Shown: positions 2,059-33,093 of the stretch, piece after piece
Numbering within the stretch: the stretch's first letter is position 1
How the letters are laid out: every line of letters starts with the position of its first letter
NCBI GenBank assembly: GCA_947177205.1
Contig: CAMWTO010000008.1
Coordinates: 1 to 33,384 of the forward strand
Reading direction: 5' to 3'
Source: an uncultured Ruminococcus sp.
GTDB lineage: Bacteria; Bacillota; Clostridia; Oscillospirales; Ruminococcaceae
Length of the DNA stretch: 33,384 nt
Program-made: the position numbers and the translations under genes
The notes under the pieces: generated by a model
What the model was told of the DNA's origin: nothing
The model's database searches: none
The model's input: the letters and a program-made list of their open reading frames with translations, nothing else

Positions 2059-3306
2059 ATTTTTGAGAAAATATTTAATAAATTCAAGCAAGGAATCTCA
2101 AAAAAATCTGCATTTCAAAGTAAAACACTCTCACTAAATCAACTAATTGATGCTTTGGGCTTGCAAGACGTAGACAGAAGTGCGTTGAGTGAAGCAACAT
2201 ATTTCGCTTGTTTAAAAGTTTTATCAGAAAGTATCGGAAAATTGCCACTAAAAATCCAACAACAGACTGAAAATAAGGGCATTAGAATTGCAAGAGAGCA
2301 TTTATATTACAGAATGCTGAATGTCCGACCAAACAAGTACACGACAGCAACGGCGTTCTGGAGTACAATGGAGCTGTTCCGCAATCATTTTGGCAATGCC
2401 TATGCTTGGATTGATACCAGAGAGTTGACAGTTCCGCAACTATGGTTAATGCGACCGCAAGACGTGCATATTTGGTATGATAATGCCTGTATACTAGCTG
2501 ACGTGCCTGATGTTTATTATCAGTATAGCACACCAAAAGGTTTACTTGTACTCGGTTCTGAAGAAGTGTTACACGTTCGTTCCCACAACACAATTGACGG
2601 AATTGTGGGAATCAGCGTGCAGGAACAGCTTGCCGGGACAATCCAAAGTAATATCAAAGCACAAAAAATGCTGTCTAAACTTTACGATTCAGGCATGACG
2701 GCAAAGGCAGTTTTGAACTATACAGGTGGTCTCAACGACCAAAATGTCGATACACTGGTTAAAGGCTTTCACGAACATGTAAGCGGAGAAGATTATGGAA
2801 TTATCCCTGTTCCAACAGGTTTCAGTTTACAGCCGTTGAACATGAAACTTGCAGATAGTCAATTTTTAGAGATTAAGCAGTACAGTGCCTTGCAGATAGC
2901 AGCGGCTTTCGGTGTGAAACCATATCAGATAGGCGATTACACAAAATCCAGCTATGCCAGTGCAGAATCACAGCAACTGGCTTTCTTGACAGACACACTA
3001 TTATATATCATCAAGCAGTATGAAGAAGAAATTGCCTACAAGTTGCTGACCGACAAGGAAATGGCGGACGGCTATCATGTGAAATTCAATACCAAGGCAA
3101 TTCTGCGAACCGACCACAAGACCCAGGTGGAAACGCTAACAACCGGTATCGGAAACTTTCTTTATACGCCAAACGAGGCAAGAGAACAGATTGACTTGCC
3201 ATCCATTGACGGCGGTGACACGCTGATCGGCAACGGCAATGCGATTCCGATTCAAATTGTTGGACAGCAATATGTAGATCATGCGGAAACAGGAGGGAAT
3301 CCATGA
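2059..3306 (+). CDS. Portal protein (HK97 family), probable non-canonical start
   Basis: The portal forms the dodecameric DNA gate at the capsid vertex. Recognisable stretches are SEATYFACLKVLSESIGKLPLK near the N-terminus and AAAFGVKPYQIGDY in the C-terminal half. The first ATG/GTG/TTG in frame is TTG at 2155, but the frame is open back to 2044 and encodes IFEKIFNKFKQGISKKS, just what family members have at their N-terminus. There is no ATG, GTG or TTG in that stretch. ATT at 2059, about 7 nt after GGAAG, is the best candidate start. The 3' end overlaps the protease start (ATGA). Function is sure; the start is inferred. Confidence 0.92.
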   Translation: MFEKIFNKFKQGISKKSAFQSKTLSLNQLIDALGLQDVDRSALSEATYFACLKVLSESIGKLPLKIQQQTENKGIRIAREHLYYRMLNVRPNKYTTATAFWSTMELFRNHFGNAYAWIDTRELTVPQLWLMRPQDVHIWYDNACILADVPDVYYQYSTPKGLLVLGSEEVLHVRSHNTIDGIVGISVQEQLAGTIQSNIKAQKMLSKLYDSGMTAKAVLNYTGGLNDQNVDTLVKGFHEHVSGEDYGIIPVPTGFSLQPLNMKLADSQFLEIKQYSALQIAAAFGVKPYQIGDYTKSSYASAESQQLAFLTDTLLYIIKQYEEEIAYKLLTDKEMADGYHVKFNTKAILRTDHKTQVETLTTGIGNFLYTPNEAREQIDLPSIDGGDTLIGNGNAIPIQIVGQQYVDHAETGGNP

Positions 3307-3962: not shown

Positions 3963-5073
3963 GAAAATGCGTGAGTTGCAGACCGAAATCCTGAAAAAGA
4001 CGAACGCTGCACAAGCTTTGATGGAAGAAGAAGTCAAAGATGTAACAAAGGCGACCTCTTTGCTGGACGAAGCGGATGAACTCAAGAGAGAATTTGATAC
4101 GCTTGCCAGGATTGAAAATGCCGAAAAAGCAAGTGTTCCGAATGAGATTGCCAAAAAAACAGATAGTTCAGGTTTTGCCCTGATTTCTAAAATGCTTTCT
4201 GGTAAGCACTTGGATCAGACAGAAAAAGCCGCATTAATCACCGGAACGGATGCCGCAAATGGCGAAAATTTCTTAATTCCGGAAGATGTCCGGCTGGAAA
4301 TCAACGAACTCAGACAGTCGTACATTTCCGCCAAAGACATTGTGACGATTGTGCCGACGTTTGGCTTGACCGGTTCGGAGAACTACGAAGCAAACGCTCC
4401 GGCAGGACTGATTGCATTTGACGACGGCGAAGATGTTCCAGATGCTGCTCTTCCGAAATTCATCAAGAAGAATTTTGCAATTAAATGGTATGGCAGTCTG
4501 ATTCCAATTTCTAACATCCTGGTTGGTGCGGAAAAAGCCGGACTGATGAGCTATTTGAACAACTGGTTTGTCAAAAATGCAATTATTACAGAAAATTCCG
4601 CTATTTTTGACGCACTAAAAAGTGGCTACAATGCAGGAACACCTAAGGCGGTTGCCGGATGGCAAGCCCTGAAAAGCTCCATCAATAAGGATTTAGACCC
4701 GTCCTGCCTGATTAATGGCATGATTATTACGAATCAGAGCGGATTTGACTGCCTGGATAGTGCGACGGATGCCGATGGCAGACCAATTTTGCAGCCGAAT
4801 CCGGCAAGTGCAACAGAATTGTTATTCCAGGGATTGCCGATTAAAGTATTTCCGGATACACAGCTTGCTAATATTGATGCAACGCATTTCCCGATTTTCT
4901 ACGGTGACACCAAGGCAGGTTGTAAGTTCATTGAATACCAGTCTTTGCAGTTTGCATACTCGGAGCATTTCGGTTTTGGCAAGAACCAGAACTACATGCG
5001 TGTGATTGAGGGATTTGACATCATGAACGCTGACACGTCTGCCTACATCTATGGCAGTCTGAGTGCAGATTAA
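3952..5073 (+). CDS. Major capsid protein (HK97 fold) with N-terminal scaffold domain
   Basis: This 373-residue protein starts with about 60 residues of charged predicted coiled coil (KKMRELQTEILKKTNAA), the delta or scaffold domain that the upstream protease would remove. The HK97-type shell domain follows, with NGENFLIPEDVRLEI, SYISAKDIVTIVPT and PIKVFPDTQLANI. The order portal, protease, capsid is the standard HK97 cassette. AGGAGGT lies 7 nt upstream of the first ATG. Its TAA overlaps the ATG of the next gene (TAATG). Confidence 0.94.
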   Translation: MMTKKMRELQTEILKKTNAAQALMEEEVKDVTKATSLLDEADELKREFDTLARIENAEKASVPNEIAKKTDSSGFALISKMLSGKHLDQTEKAALITGTDAANGENFLIPEDVRLEINELRQSYISAKDIVTIVPTFGLTGSENYEANAPAGLIAFDDGEDVPDAALPKFIKKNFAIKWYGSLIPISNILVGAEKAGLMSYLNNWFVKNAIITENSAIFDALKSGYNAGTPKAVAGWQALKSSINKDLDPSCLINGMIITNQSGFDCLDSATDADGRPILQPNPASATELLFQGLPIKVFPDTQLANIDATHFPIFYGDTKAGCKFIEYQSLQFAYSEHFGFGKNQNYMRVIEGFDIMNADTSAYIYGSLSAD

Positions 5074-10600: not shown

Positions 10601-12797
10601 TCTCCCTGCAATTGTAAACAGCCTGAAAAGAATTATCAAAAATCTGACTTCTGCTTTCAAGTCAGTTGTCTCAGACTTACTTCCAGAGCTATTAAAAACA
10701 GCTGTACAGCTTTTAACTGGCGGTATTCCTTTAATAGCATCGACAGCTTCGGAACTATTTGGAGCGATTATAGATGCTTTGCCGGACTTATTAGAATCTT
10801 TAGGAACGGCTTTGCTGCAAGTCATAGATGATATTACGGATTTCTTCTCTAAAGAAGAAAATCTGGATAAGCTGAAAGATACCGGTAAGAAATTACTGGA
10901 AAAGATTGCAGTCAGCATGAAAGAAAATACCGGGGTATTGAAAAAACAAATTCCCGGAATAATGAAGAAAATCCGGGATGAATTAAAGAATGCTGTTCCA
11001 AAAATGGCTTCTGTAGCAGATAAAATCATCACAAACATAACAGATGCCTTTGATGTAAGCGACAAGTGGCAGGATTTTAAAAATGCCTTTTCCACTATCT
11101 TTGCAGGCGTTCCAGAAAATTTAGAAGAAAAATACAGAATTTTTAAAGAAACAGCCACAGAATCTTTTGACAGAATTAAAAAGTCTGCTGAAAATCTAAA
11201 AAATGCTGTAAAAAATTTATTTGACCGTCTCAAGGAATTGTTAAACATCCATGCTGGTGACGCAAATGATGCTGTCAACGCAATTGTAGAAATTGCCGGG
11301 GCAATTGCATCTATTAGCGTTGATGCGGTTAGTAGGGCAATAGAAGCTATTTCTGATTTCTTATTATGGATCTCTGGTGATAGTTTTGGAGCTGAAACAA
11401 CAAGAGATGCTATTGTTGGCGTTGTCACGGCAATTGCGACGTTTGAGACATTGAACGGGGCAATCACTATTATACAAAATCTACCTAATTTGCTATCTGG
11501 TCTTTCCGGTGCTTTTACAGGTTTCTGGGGGGTAATCGCAGCAAATCCACTTTTAGCATTAATTTCATTATTGGTTGGTCTAATCGCTGTCTTAGGAAAT
11601 GTCATGAAAACAAGCGAAGAATGGCAAATTGGTTGGCAGATGATAAAGGATGCCTTTAATGACGCTGTAGATTCCTGGAAAGTCGGCGAAAAAACACTAG
11701 AAGAATTTGGCGGAAAAGTCTATGACTTTATTCAAGATTTCAAAAATTCATGGGAAGTGGGGGAAAAATCGCTTGAAAAATTTGGCGAGAGCATCTACGA
11801 TCTGATTCACGAAGAAATTCCGAGCAAATTTAAAGAATTAATCGAAAATGCGAAACAATGGGGAAATGACTTCTTGATGAACTTCGTAGAGGGTGTCAGT
11901 GAGAAAATCAATCCATTGCATGATACATTCGAGGAACTTGGTGGATGGATTTATGACAGATTCCATTTCTCTACGCCTGACAAGGGTGTTCTGGCGGATT
12001 CCGACACATGGTTTCCGGATATGATGCAGAATTTTGCAAATGGTATCCGTGAAAATTCAGTACTTGTCATGGATCAATTAGGAAATCTGTCAAACAACAT
12101 GGCAGAACAATCCCAAAATGCAGGTAATCGGTTCTTAAATGGTATATTAAGCCTGACAGAGAAATTACCTGGAAACTTAGGGATTCACCTGTCAAACGCT
12201 GTAAACCGTGTAATCGACTTTGGAAGAAATCTACATCAAAAGGCAGATTCTGCCGCATCTGACATGGTCAATGCTATCGAGAACAGAATCCGCAGTCTGC
12301 CAGATAAAATGACCGAAGTCGGACAAAATCTGGTTCAGGGATTATGGAACGGCATTCAAGGTATGAAAAACTGGGTATTATCTCAGATTTCGGGATTCTG
12401 TAACAATATTCTTGACAGCATTTTTGCAACATTCGATATTCACTCTCCGGCGAAAACAACTATCTACGTTGGCAAAATGCTGGATTATGGCATTGCTGGC
12501 GGTGTAACCGAAAATCAGGACGAACCCATTCAGGCTATTCGCCAAATGGCACACAATTTGTTAAACGAAACTGCGGTCATCCCGGAGCGGCTACCAGTAC
12601 AGCAAACGCAATTCCAGGCATCCACAATGCAAAACGTTGCAAATATCAGTACGCTGTCCGAAAAACTAGACAACATCTTACAAGCAATCCAAAACGGACA
12701 AGTTATCATGCTAGATGGTGACAAACTGGTTGGCGGCACAGCAAACCAAATGAACGCAGCACTCGGAAAAATTCAATTACTCTCGGCAAGGAGATAA
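7647..12797 (+). CDS. Tail tape measure protein
   Basis: At 1716 residues this is the largest protein. Residues 1-135 are coiled coil (FSAAIKHAEDESKKLSRELT). Residues 139-500 hold five diverged copies of a 77-residue repeat with core SLKxTISEQEKELSxLKxxYK and GENSEKAKEL. A TP901-type tape measure core follows near 570-800 (GETFEASMSKVKAISGATTSEL, ADALTYMALAGWKVDDM). Then come hydrophobic segments around 1270-1320 and a C-terminal FSTPDKGVLADSDTW and IHSPAKTTIYVGKM typical of the family. It sets tail length and likely aids DNA passage. GGGGCAG lies upstream. The 452-aa minus ORF inside is a shadow. Confidence 0.95.
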   Translation: MASQTIKGLTVQIGGDTTKFSAAIKHAEDESKKLSRELTDVNKLLKADPGNINLLAQKQQILTEKVAATKEKLDTLKQAEAQVQAQFEKGDITAEQYRAFQREIAFTTNEMQGYEKQIATTTQKLTEAKAKTDEEVSSLEILRAKISLQEKELSGLREQYKSTVIAEGENSEKAKELKSQYEALNDKLTESKQKMNEAETAASSLGKAETEVATPLESLKNTISEQEKELSELKDQYKSAVLAEGENSEKAKELKAEYDALNSKLGESKQKLNEAETAAASLSQAEEAALSPMDSLKKTISEQEKELSALKDEYKNVVMEQGKDSDAARQLESQFDSLNQELQENQQKLNEIEQEANQLGKAEEKALTPLESLKKSIADQEKELDQLNTEYKNAVVQYGKNSDEAKELATKIKNLSEEHQNEKAKLQEAEKATQSITATEKTLTEQYEDQKSELSTLKQQYINVAAQYGENSKEAKALAKQIDSLSGELAEEEKKIKQAESSADKFDKTLSDTSKDADKASDNVKDLGNSAKDAESSFSTAAVAVGEFMGNLAIELLQRATELIKNFASGTVETGETFEASMSKVKAISGATTSELADLDAVARQYGRDTQFSASECADALTYMALAGWKVDDMIKALPGVLNLAAASEMDLAKASDVVTDYMTAFGWEANRAGEFADKMAFAMANSNTDTEMLGEAYKNCASTADSLHYSMEEVTAAIMTMANAGVKGGESGTALNAVMTRLATDTKGCASALAEYGVNIYDEEGNMQSLSSILTGISDVWSDLTDEQQANLAKIIAGQQQYSSFQTIMKGLSDTAKESGKSFEDYTEALLNCDGAADTMAKTMTDNLQGDLKKMESAYQDLQLSIYDGVNKPLRDVVQTITDNVLPAFSNLIKGADGAEKEVSEAIGKLASVVLKKIKDLLPKILPTLSKIIQQLVFKSISNIKNLGYMLANSIQALTKDIIPAFSRNFPKLIARISSLVKKNLPAIVNSLKRIIKNLTSAFKSVVSDLLPELLKTAVQLLTGGIPLIASTASELFGAIIDALPDLLESLGTALLQVIDDITDFFSKEENLDKLKDTGKKLLEKIAVSMKENTGVLKKQIPGIMKKIRDELKNAVPKMASVADKIITNITDAFDVSDKWQDFKNAFSTIFAGVPENLEEKYRIFKETATESFDRIKKSAENLKNAVKNLFDRLKELLNIHAGDANDAVNAIVEIAGAIASISVDAVSRAIEAISDFLLWISGDSFGAETTRDAIVGVVTAIATFETLNGAITIIQNLPNLLSGLSGAFTGFWGVIAANPLLALISLLVGLIAVLGNVMKTSEEWQIGWQMIKDAFNDAVDSWKVGEKTLEEFGGKVYDFIQDFKNSWEVGEKSLEKFGESIYDLIHEEIPSKFKELIENAKQWGNDFLMNFVEGVSEKINPLHDTFEELGGWIYDRFHFSTPDKGVLADSDTWFPDMMQNFANGIRENSVLVMDQLGNLSNNMAEQSQNAGNRFLNGILSLTEKLPGNLGIHLSNAVNRVIDFGRNLHQKADSAASDMVNAIENRIRSLPDKMTEVGQNLVQGLWNGIQGMKNWVLSQISGFCNNILDSIFATFDIHSPAKTTIYVGKMLDYGIAGGVTENQDEPIQAIRQMAHNLLNETAVIPERLPVQQTQFQASTMQNVANISTLSEKLDNILQAIQNGQVIMLDGDKLVGGTANQMNAALGKIQLLSARR

Positions 12798-29875: not shown

Positions 29876-30017
29876 AGTCCTATACAGTAGTGGCGAAGTG
29901 AATACGCCTGTAAGAATAAGGGTTGCCTGATTTTCAGGTGGAAACTGAAATACCAATCTTCTTACGAAGCCCCCACCTCTTAGCGAGTGTAACGAGCGTA
30001 GGTGGGGGAGAGTTCAC
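29876..30017 (+). mobile_element. IS200/IS605-type remnant or mini-element (right end / omega-RNA-like), no transposase
   Basis: The segment after TTTAT (29871..29875) contains GGTGGAAACTGAAATACC, a small CCTGATTTTCAGG hairpin, then GAAGCCCCCACCT...AGGTGGGGG (9-bp stem 29970..29978 with 30000..30008) and GTTCAC at the end. This order is what I recall from 3' ends of TnpB-carrying IS605-family elements, where the same DNA forms the end of the omega RNA. The element lies between an AGGAGTATTTAT, matching the binding site of the paralog at 25775, and the paralog's coding part. About 142 bp; boundaries estimated. Confidence 0.6.
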
Positions 30018-30018
30018 G

Positions 30019-31675: not shown

Positions 31676-31764
31676 TAATTATTTCTGAAGAGAACGATTA
31701 CCATTATATAATTATAATTAAGAGGGAAAAGGTGCTGTGCATCTGAAAAAATGAGGTGATGTAC

Positions 31765-31986
31765 ATGCAGACAGAAACTGTTGGGGCAAGAATCCGGTAT
31801 CTGAGAAGAAAGAACGGTATTACACAGAAAAAGCTTGCCGAAATTTTGTATGTGTCAGTGTCAACGGTATCCTGCTGGGAACGTGACAGATCAGAACCAA
31901 GCATCTGTTTCATTGTAAAATTGACAATGCTGTTCTGCATATCTCTGGATTATCTGATGACTGGAAATGAAAAAACAACTCCTTGA
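31765..31986 (+). CDS. Small Xre-family regulator
   Basis: ATG at 31765 after GAGGTGATGTAC is preferred over GTG 31756. The 73-residue product is a single HTH_3 domain (VGARIRYLRRKNGITQKKLA, ILYVSVSTVSCWERDRSEPS) plus CISLDYLMTGNE. It follows the DUF2441-like gene and may regulate it. Its stop codon lies in the terminator stem. Confidence 0.85.
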   Translation: MQTETVGARIRYLRRKNGITQKKLAEILYVSVSTVSCWERDRSEPSICFIVKLTMLFCISLDYLMTGNEKTTP

Positions 31987-32010
31987 ATTTTGTCAGGGAG
32001 TTGTTTTTTT
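31972..32010 (+). terminator. Strong intrinsic terminator
   Basis: AAAACAACTCCTTGA pairs with TCAGGGAGTTGTTTT (15 bp with one G-T), loop ATTTTG, then a T run. It ends the accessory operon just before the tRNA promoter. Confidence 0.88.
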
Positions 32011-32034
32011 TACTTGACATTTTGTAGAATTTTA

Positions 32035-32062
32035 TTGACACAATTAAAAAATATGATATAAT
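32035..32062 (+). promoter_or_regulatory. Promoter for the tRNA-like transcript
   Basis: TTGACA (32035..32040), 16-nt spacer, TATAAT (32057..32062). The next 60 nt contain two hairpins (AAGCC/GGCTT and CAGAA/TTCTG) before the tRNA. Confidence 0.85.
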
Positions 32063-32131
32063 TAATATAACAGAAGCCAGCACGGCTTTTCCCCTCATTT
32101 GATGATGTTTCTAGGTTTCAGAAGCATTTCT

Positions 32132-32203
32132 GGCAGAGTAGAGCAATGGCAGCTCGCAAGGTTCATGCCCTTGAGGCAGGCGGTTCGATTCCGCCATCTG
32201 CAA
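32132..32203 (+). tRNA. tRNA(CAU), initiator-like and unusual
   Basis: The cloverleaf is visible: acceptor GGCAGAG with ATCTGCA (5 of 7 pairs; mismatches at 1-72 and 7-66), TA, D arm GAGC/GCTC, anticodon arm CAAGG TTCATGC CCTTG, variable loop AGGCA, T arm GGCGG TTCGATT CCGCC, discriminator A, no encoded CCA. The anticodon is CAU. The unpaired 1-72 ends and A11:U24 are hallmarks of initiator tRNA, but only two G-C pairs close the anticodon stem, and G37 is unusual. It may be a phage initiator-like tRNA, a decaying tRNA, or a tRNA mimic. Confidence 0.72.
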
Positions 32204-32220
32204 TTGAACATATAGTATAG

Positions 32221-32286
32221 GAACGCCTTTTCTGTAATACATAGTTATGTTATATGTAATACATGAAGGTGTTCTTTGCTTTTTTA
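32221..32286 (+). terminator. Terminator-like hairpin after the tRNA
   Basis: GAACGCCTT (32221) pairs with AAGGTGTTC (32266), followed by TTTGCTTTTTT. The loop carries two GTAATACAT repeats. It may end the tRNA transcript or attenuate reading into mazF. Confidence 0.6.
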
Positions 32287-32301: not shown

Positions 32302-32646
32302 ATGAAACGGAATATTAGAACTATCAGACGTGGCGATATATATTTGATCGATTGCGGCAAGACTGTCGGATCAGAGCAAGGTGGTATCCGTCCAGCGGTT
32401 GTGATCCAGAATAACATGGGGAATCGTTATTCACCCACAACAATTGTGGCAATGATTACTTCGTCTACCAAGAAACATTTGCCGACACATGTCCAGATTG
32501 ACAGGGGACTTGAAATGCAATCCTGTGTTCTTTTGGAACAGATTCGGACAATTTCAATTGATAGATTGAAACAATACATAGTTACATTGGACAGATCTGA
32601 TATGATTCGGATTGACAATGCTCTGAGAGAAAGCCTTGCTATTTAG
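32302..32646 (+). CDS. MazF/PemK-family endoribonuclease, no antitoxin seen
   Basis: ATG at 32302 follows TTAGGAGAT; the track start lies inside the upstream hairpin. The 114-residue protein matches MazF/PemK: RRGDIYLIDCGKTVGSEQGG, IRPAVVIQNNMGN, TTIVAMITSSTKKHLPTHVQ, and VLLEQIRTISIDRL. This family cuts RNA at short motifs. No MazE-like gene is next to it: upstream is the tRNA, downstream an HNH nuclease. Solitary copies at this position are common in Firmicute prophages and may act in phage or host RNA control. Confidence 0.9.
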   Translation: MKRNIRTIRRGDIYLIDCGKTVGSEQGGIRPAVVIQNNMGNRYSPTTIVAMITSSTKKHLPTHVQIDRGLEMQSCVLLEQIRTISIDRLKQYIVTLDRSDMIRIDNALRESLAI

Positions 32647-32658
32647 GGGGTATCATGA

Positions 32659-33093
32659 ATGACCTATAAACCGTGTCCACGATGCAAGAAACTGATACCG
32701 CATGGCACAGCATACTGTGCAGCGTGTAAGCCAATCGTGGAACAGGCTGTGCAGGAGAAACAGCAGTATAACAAATCCATGCGGCAGAAGAAATACAACA
32801 GTCGGAGAAATCAGAAGTATGCAAAGTTCTATCATTCAAAGGATTGGAAGAATCTCAGCCGATACAAGTTAGAACAAGTCAGTTGGAAGTGTGAAGCTCA
32901 TCTTGATGACAGATGTACAGGTGTTGCGGTGGAAGTCCATCATGTCAAACCGATTCAAACGGAAGAGGGTTGGAATCTCCGGCTTGAATGGAGCAATCTG
33001 GAAGCCGTCTGCACACATTGCCACAATCTTCGGCATCCGGAAAAGTTACGCAGAGTGCAGCCTGGTGTGGTAGATATGCGAAAATTTTTGTAA
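32659..33093 (+). CDS. HNH endonuclease (packaging associated)
   Basis: The 144-residue protein has an N-terminal zinc-ribbon-like CPRCKKLIPHGTAYCAAC, a YHSKDWKNLSRYKL segment and the HNH motif: EVHHVKPIQ, WSNLEAVCTHCHNLRH. AGGGGG is 9 nt before ATG. HNH proteins next to terminase genes in HK97-like phages act with the terminase in cutting cos DNA. Confidence 0.92.
   Translation: MTYKPCPRCKKLIPHGTAYCAACKPIVEQAVQEKQQYNKSMRQKKYNSRRNQKYAKFYHSKDWKNLSRYKLEQVSWKCEAHLDDRCTGVAVEVHHVKPIQTEEGWNLRLEWSNLEAVCTHCHNLRHPEKLRRVQPGVVDMRKFL

Follow-up and report, generated by a model that had tools for sequence, protein, structure and literature searches.

An initiator-type tRNA(CAU) and its adjoining hairpin as an optional insert in the late-operon leader of temperate Ruminococcus-group phages

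The window analysed (the whole stretch of 33,384 nt) carries a single tRNA gene with a CAU anticodon, situated directly downstream of a hairpin in the leader of the late operon of a temperate phage. Comparison with related leaders shows that the hairpin and the tRNA together form an insert that is optional, since sister phages have the same late (packaging) leader without it. The likeliest role of this unit in temperate gut phages of the Ruminococcus group would be to supply extra initiator Met-tRNA during late gene expression, and we put the probability of this reading at about one half.

The tRNA gene and its phage setting

The window is spanned by a temperate phage, recognised in Pfam and phrog scans by its terminase, portal, capsid, tail, lysis, replication and integrase genes. 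The tRNA had been predicted to be phage-encoded, and terminase, portal, capsid and integrase genes do surround it; the tyrosine integrase gene lies 2 kb upstream. The contig comes from a metagenome-assembled genome (MAG), as apparently do the genus genomes compared with it, which consist of many contigs and are incomplete. The features discussed below are as follows.

303-2054: large terminase, with the portal gene and the other genes named above following it
31756-31986, + strand: small Xre/HTH_3 regulator, 76 aa (Pfam HTH_3, 9e-11), Met start probably at 31765
31974-32011, + strand: the regulator gene's intrinsic terminator (AACTCC...GGAGTT and a run of T), conserved in the alignment
32012-32030, + strand: operator-like palindrome abutting the -35 box, in the window with hybrid half-sites CTTGAC / GTAGAA
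32035-32062, + strand: sigma-70 promoter TTGACA-16-TATAAT, 12/12 match, kept in every sister cassette, whether tRNA-plus or tRNA-less
32072-32096, + strand: leader hairpin I (fold and alignment), then UCCCCUC, kept in leaders with and without tRNA
32101-32130, + strand: leader hairpin II (covariation), directly 5' of the tRNA and absent where the tRNA is absent
32132-32203, + strand: initiator-type/hybrid tRNA(CAU), anticodon at 32164-32166, G37 at 32167, A66 at 32196
32219-32285, + strand: stem-loop with U-tract, putative leader terminator before the late genes (fold, z = -5.4)
32302-32646, + strand: mazF/pemK toxin-like gene, first after the leader (PF02452, 7e-32)
32659-33093, + strand: HNH endonuclease, opening the packaging module (PF01844, phrog_144)
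from about 33203, continuing at the window start: small terminase, frame continuous across the contig ends

The 33384/1 joint divides the small terminase gene, which reads on in frame with exactly 9 nt absent (GAAAATAAA in sister L119); the gap could represent a trimmed overlap or the cohesive ends of linear phage DNA. Directly after the integrase gene, a 143-bp stretch (29876-30018) was found to recur on several other contigs of the same genome with up to 95-98% identity. Its copies mostly share the right edge, and two stand at contig starts. It is a dispersed host repeat that may be the attachment site.

The tRNA itself is real, as both ARAGORN, which reported it as tRNA-Met(CAT) at 32131-32204, and the Rfam covariance model RF00005 (32132-32203, 46.9 bits against a gathering score of 29) matched it. 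The letters listed in the original prediction (CAU, A11:U24, unpaired 1-72, the 7-66 mismatch and G37) were all present when checked position by position. The acceptor comprises unpaired G1xA72, G2:C71, C3:G70, the G7xA66 mismatch and A73, with CCA not encoded; G26 follows in the body and the anticodon arm reads CAAGG-UUCAUGC-CCUUG. An unpaired 1-72, G2:C71, C3:G70 and A11:U24 are the initiator and formylation determinants (PMC7949028, PMC4611024), and the window tRNA possesses all of them. Moreover, a strong 1:72 pair is absent from 13 of 13 cassette tRNAs, where position 1 is G, U or A and A72 is constant.

The anticodon arm is of a different kind. The three-GC signature of the anticodon stem (29-31:39-41), which two reviews describe as occurring throughout, or strongly conserved across, the initiator tRNAs of every domain (PMC4611024, PMC7949028), is complete in 0 of the 13 distinct cassette tRNAs, with 29:41 being A:U in every one. 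The anticodon loop is often of the elongator Met kind, UUCAUAC in sister copies and UUCAUGC in the window; other copies have CUCAUAA. The paired 1-72 and C11:G24 of elongator tRNA-Met are lacking in the window tRNA, whereas C11:G24 occurs in all 21 host elongator Met tRNAs, with G1 paired to U or C.

A three-way profile trained on Bacillota tRNAs, correct for 79/79 in a leave-one-out test, scored the window tRNA as closer to elongator Met, by 13.6 bits in total, owing to acceptor and anticodon-arm letters; with the D arm alone the initiator was favoured by 19.6 bits. A better fit to a degraded elongator or isoleucine tRNA had been named as the outcome that would count against initiator identity. 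Isoleucine identity was ruled out by the same profile (+28.5 bits for initiator over Ile2), and the G1:C72 and C11:G24 found in 26/26 host Ile2-like tRNAs are both absent; the elongator fit is borne out overall and reversed in the D arm. The tRNA is not a clean initiator, as it lacks G29:C41 and its loop, UUCAU(A)C, matches that of the elongator Met of the phylum. The description "initiator-like" is supported, and on its letters the tRNA is best called an initiator-type hybrid.

The late leader and its optional insert

Every copy with enough upstream sequence demonstrated the same order: Xre regulator, terminator, palindrome, near-consensus promoter, leader, tRNA, stem-loop and packaging genes. 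A profile search with the regulator gave 20 close members in the genus at 109 bits or more, the next best reaching 68. Thirteen of these precede the tRNA, five (L322-L326) are tRNA-less and two are cut by contig ends. The tRNA-less loci retain the regulator, operator, promoter, hairpin I, stem-loop and late gene, and the alignment leaves a clean gap for hairpin II plus the tRNA. The strong promoter, structured leader with hairpins before the tRNA and terminator-like stem had all been anticipated and are present. Their assignment to the tRNA as its own promoter and terminator did not hold: because the same leader occurs without tRNA in five sister phages, the promoter, operator, hairpin I and terminator belong to the late operon. 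A strong promoter and a terminator ahead of the late genes, there whether or not the tRNA is, are what a late-operon leader of the lambda PR' kind would have.

Besides the promoter at 32035-32062, no promoter-like site stands on the plus strand between 31239 and 33384; three perfect promoter sites occur in the window, compared with 0.06 expected. Covariation in hairpin II amounted to 14 double-change cells, compared with 6.1 in shuffles (0/500) and far above slid registers, with the arms extracted by hand and the alignment biased towards the stem. The terminator-like stem consists of 9 bp (GAACGCCTT/AAGGTGTTC) followed by TTTGCTTTTTT. It was missed by a simple terminator scan since its loop exceeds 8 nt; sisters have a stem-loop at the same place with variable U-tracts. 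Hairpin I is followed by UUUUYCCCUC with and without tRNA, a candidate antitermination or processing signal. The domain scans of the window gave no obvious candidate for an antitermination protein.

Wherever the sequence of the sister cassettes reaches far enough, tRNA-less ones included, the Xre regulator gene immediately precedes the promoter, and the 76-aa protein is likely to regulate the leader promoter. Sisters have clean palindromes whose half-sites change together, tracking the recognition helix of the adjoining regulator: DKT or GKT goes with TGTAGAA, QKT with TGTAGTAT, NNT with TGTGCAA and, mostly, EST with TCAAG and HRT with TGGAAT. In L129 the operator goes with its regulator, though promoter and leader derive from another lineage. 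This co-change, among copies that are related, supports binding of the regulator at the putative operator. Among wider HTH relatives in IMG/VR (at most 45% identity) the cassette was absent.

The genes behind the stem-loop vary. They are an HNH gene with one terminase family, a different HNH gene with another terminase, an ArpU/DUF1492-like gene, or mazF. The cassette opens several unrelated packaging modules. In one sister phage (L131), the cassette with regulator and tRNA is immediately preceded, at 11896-12514, by a pair consisting of a Phd/YefM antitoxin and a PIN-domain toxin.

The mazF gene adjoins the tRNA in only three cassettes (window, L121 and L122), for which reason MazF was rejected as a partner of the tRNA, either as the toxin of an RNA antitoxin or as an enzyme with a tRNA target; its position is incidental. 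Matches to mazF turned up in 93 of 100 related genomes, and most of these represent a more distant type; a search with the MazF protein in IMG/VR gave no confirmed relative. The phage mazF (32302-32646) has no visible antitoxin. UACAU is the target of some Bacillota MazF enzymes, and the stem that separates the tRNA from mazF has two such motifs in its loop, near 32238 and 32260, so that self-regulation is possible.

Related tRNAs in the genus and in other phages

The genus search yielded 14 copies of the tRNA in 8 of 100 genomes, the window genome holding three besides the one in the window. Mean identity among copies is 92% for the tRNA against 62% for the leader. Broken pairs number 3 compared with 15.2 expected under random substitution (0/2000 simulations), a figure that is indicative as the copies are related, and compensatory changes were seen at 13:22 and 51:63 and coordinated ones at 32/38. 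Selection on the pairing of the tRNA is thus indicated. The anticodon is retained in 13 of the 14 copies, U33 in all, and A37 in every distinct copy except that of the window. Most copies have the elongator-type loop with U32/C38. The exception in the anticodon, L129 15533-15605 (G016:C2), has an intact tRNA body with CCA and has lost two anticodon-loop bases, so that it cannot read AUG; ARAGORN called it tRNA-Stop(tta).

The positions marked as odd in the original prediction divide in two. G37 is private to the window copy. The 7-66 mismatch is shared with one other copy, L122, which likewise lacks CCA; in most sisters the acceptor is fully paired from 2-71 to 7-66, and several encode CCA. 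L122 is a recombinant from another species, its downstream DNA nearly identical to that of the window and its regulator and leader different; its tRNA differs from the window tRNA by one substitution (A37G). The Rfam score of the window copy (46.9) compares with 54.8-59.3 for three sister copies in the same genome, and with G37 and G7xA66 it may be weaker than they are.

Initiator-type tRNAs were also collected from diverse phage contigs in IMG/VR. Positions 5-13, 22-26 and 33-36 and the D-loop were set in the search pattern, which required purines at 37 and at the start of the variable loop and limited the set to tRNAs with a short D-loop. Since 27-32 and 38-43 were left free, the result for 29:41 is not built in. 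The three GC pairs were complete in 11 of 59 distinct phage tRNAs (5 of 35 clusters at 85% identity), compared with 32/32 host initiators of the phylum. Position 29:41 was always paired, as A:U in 31, G:C in 17 and U:A in 11. Similar tRNAs were present in 116 phage records, often annotated as tRNA-Met. Searches of the open-access literature found no account of initiator tRNAs in phages that lack the three GC pairs.

Of 38 solitary phage initiator-type tRNAs, 19 had a hairpin of -9 kcal/mol or stronger within 12 nt of the 5' end, compared with 19% in shuffles, while arrayed phage tRNAs (6/28) and host initiators (3/32) gave little or no excess. The layout of hairpin, tRNA, terminator and terminase recurs in Javan59 and CN1A with tRNAs of different sequence. 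In Streptococcus phage Javan59 (L332) the initiator-type tRNA at 3994-4066 is unannotated, has a 5' hairpin and a 3' terminator, and lies about 100 nt before the small terminase gene. A further unannotated one was seen in phage CBW1004C-Prop1 (L335) at 3000-3075, shortly downstream of the antitermination protein Q gene and at the start of the lysis/packaging genes.

These data suggest, tentatively and at odds well below even, that a distinct class of initiator tRNA exists in the phages of many bacteria, one in which the charging and formylation determinants are kept and G29:C41 is dropped. Such a tRNA might be a P-site-relaxed and possibly nuclease-resistant starter, delivered in some phages at the late switch. 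If so, phages would bring their own start machinery at that stage. The natural set of phage tRNAs, usually missing one GC pair, would make the three-GC rule testable in vivo, and the cassette with its optional tRNA provides a clean natural comparison, with and without, for the purpose of a lone phage tRNA.

Role of the tRNA and known systems compared

According to the preferred reading, the small Xre regulator would bind the palindrome beside the -35 box and control the strong sigma-70 promoter. The transcript would pass hairpin I, hairpin II and the tRNA up to the stem-loop terminator, and read-through would lead into the HNH gene, the small and large terminase genes and the later genes. RNase P and 3' processing would free the tRNA from the leader transcript, MetRS would charge it (CAU, A73), and the formyltransferase could formylate it through the unpaired 1x72, G2:C71, C3:G70 and A11:U24. 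The charged tRNA would then supplement the initiator Met-tRNA while late proteins are made. Because of its anticodon arm, with A29:U41 and often U32/C38, it would act in the P site more weakly or under less strict inspection, and it might escape host nucleases or other enzymes directed at initiator tRNA. Support for this role comes from the genus copies, every checked one of which stands in this leader, preceded by the regulator wherever the sequence extends that far. The lack of G:C at 29:41, the 13.6-bit lean to elongator, the anticodon loss in L129 and the five tRNA-less sisters count against it. Two further proposals of the original prediction found nothing in their support: an altered start selection in infected cells, the anticodon still being CAU, and mimicry of a tRNA for a regulator.

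Two other explanations are unlikely. The hairpin-tRNA unit could act by shaping the transcript, its processing leaving a protective 5' stem-loop on the late mRNA or the folded tRNA tuning read-through of the terminator, with decoding secondary. The placement of the tRNA between promoter and terminator, the conserved adjoining hairpin, the recurrence beside terminase genes in unrelated phages and the L129 copy, whose body and CCA are intact although its anticodon is destroyed, all fit such a role. The near-constant anticodon, U33 and A37 in the other copies argue against it, as do the charging and formylation determinants, which it would have no need to keep, and the tRNA-less leaders, which manage without the unit. 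On a par with it, the altered anticodon arm could counter host defences or toxins able to disable initiator tRNA (VapC-type cleavage, AtaT-type acetylation or other anticodon nucleases). Phage tRNAs can escape tRNases by changes in the anticodon loop (PMC10264068), and initiator tRNA is given as a known toxin target in the same paper. The changes do fall in the anticodon arm (29:41, 32, 38 and, in the window, 37), and one sister phage has the PIN/Phd pair just upstream. However, no specific nuclease has been linked to the changed sites, the PIN pair was seen once, and the same relaxation of 29:41 occurs in phages of many hosts.

Somewhat less likely still, the window copy may be a decaying passenger without remaining function, whether or not its sisters work. 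G37, G7xA66 and the missing CCA occur together in it, and its Rfam score is below those of the sisters in its own genome; on the other hand, it is a single substitution away from the tRNA of L122 in another species, all its other stems pair, and the host too has intact tRNAs without encoded CCA. Least probable by far is a tRNA-dependent lysogeny as known in mycobacteriophages (PMC10865867), in which the phage, here equipped with a tyrosine integrase, would break a host tRNA gene of the same type on integration and replace it with its own, since the only host fMet gene found in the MAG is intact with CCA, the host-like DNA beside the integrase gene is the 143-bp dispersed repeat and not a tRNA gene, and cassettes with different integrases share this tRNA. 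No prophage junction was seen. A sod-like gene lying near L120 was considered as host flank of a prophage and rejected, as other phage-type genes lie upstream of it, so it gave no att site.

Supply of extra initiator Met-tRNA from the late leader, the reading we prefer, has to be set beside several known systems. The window tRNA shares with bacterial tRNA-fMet the CAU anticodon, an unpaired 1-72 with A72, G2:C71, C3:G70, A11:U24, G26 and A73, but differs from it by A:U instead of G:C at 29:41, by G37 and by a D-loop of 7 nt in place of 8-9; most genus copies differ also by the U32/C38 loop. With Bacillota elongator tRNA-Met it has in common CAU, a GGC start and A73, and several copies the UUCAUAC loop, whereas elongators have C11:G24, a paired 1-72 (G:U or G:C) and A26 where the window tRNA has A11:U24, G1xA72 and G26. 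Prophages of the Sinorhizobium phiLM21 type (PMC12429752) resemble the window phage, by description, in carrying a solitary CAU tRNA in a temperate phage, and Javan59 and CN1A in having a CAU tRNA just before the terminase genes with a hairpin upstream; in none of them was the operator-regulator cassette of the window family found, and Clavibacter phage CN1A has a tRNA-Trp besides. Type III toxin-antitoxin systems (ToxIN-like, with promoter, RNA, terminator and MazF-fold toxin) are superficially similar, with an RNA gene and a terminator before a MazF-family gene, but the RNA here is a tRNA and the constant pairing with a toxin is lacking, as mazF follows the leader in only the three cassettes. 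Finally, the lambdoid PR'/qut late leader, unlike that of the window with its apparent regulation by Xre and operator, no Q-like antiterminator identified and one Met-type tRNA only, nevertheless offers a parallel in position: in the stx2 regions of some prophages (PMC9729726), tRNA genes lie in the leader between the strong promoter and the late genes.
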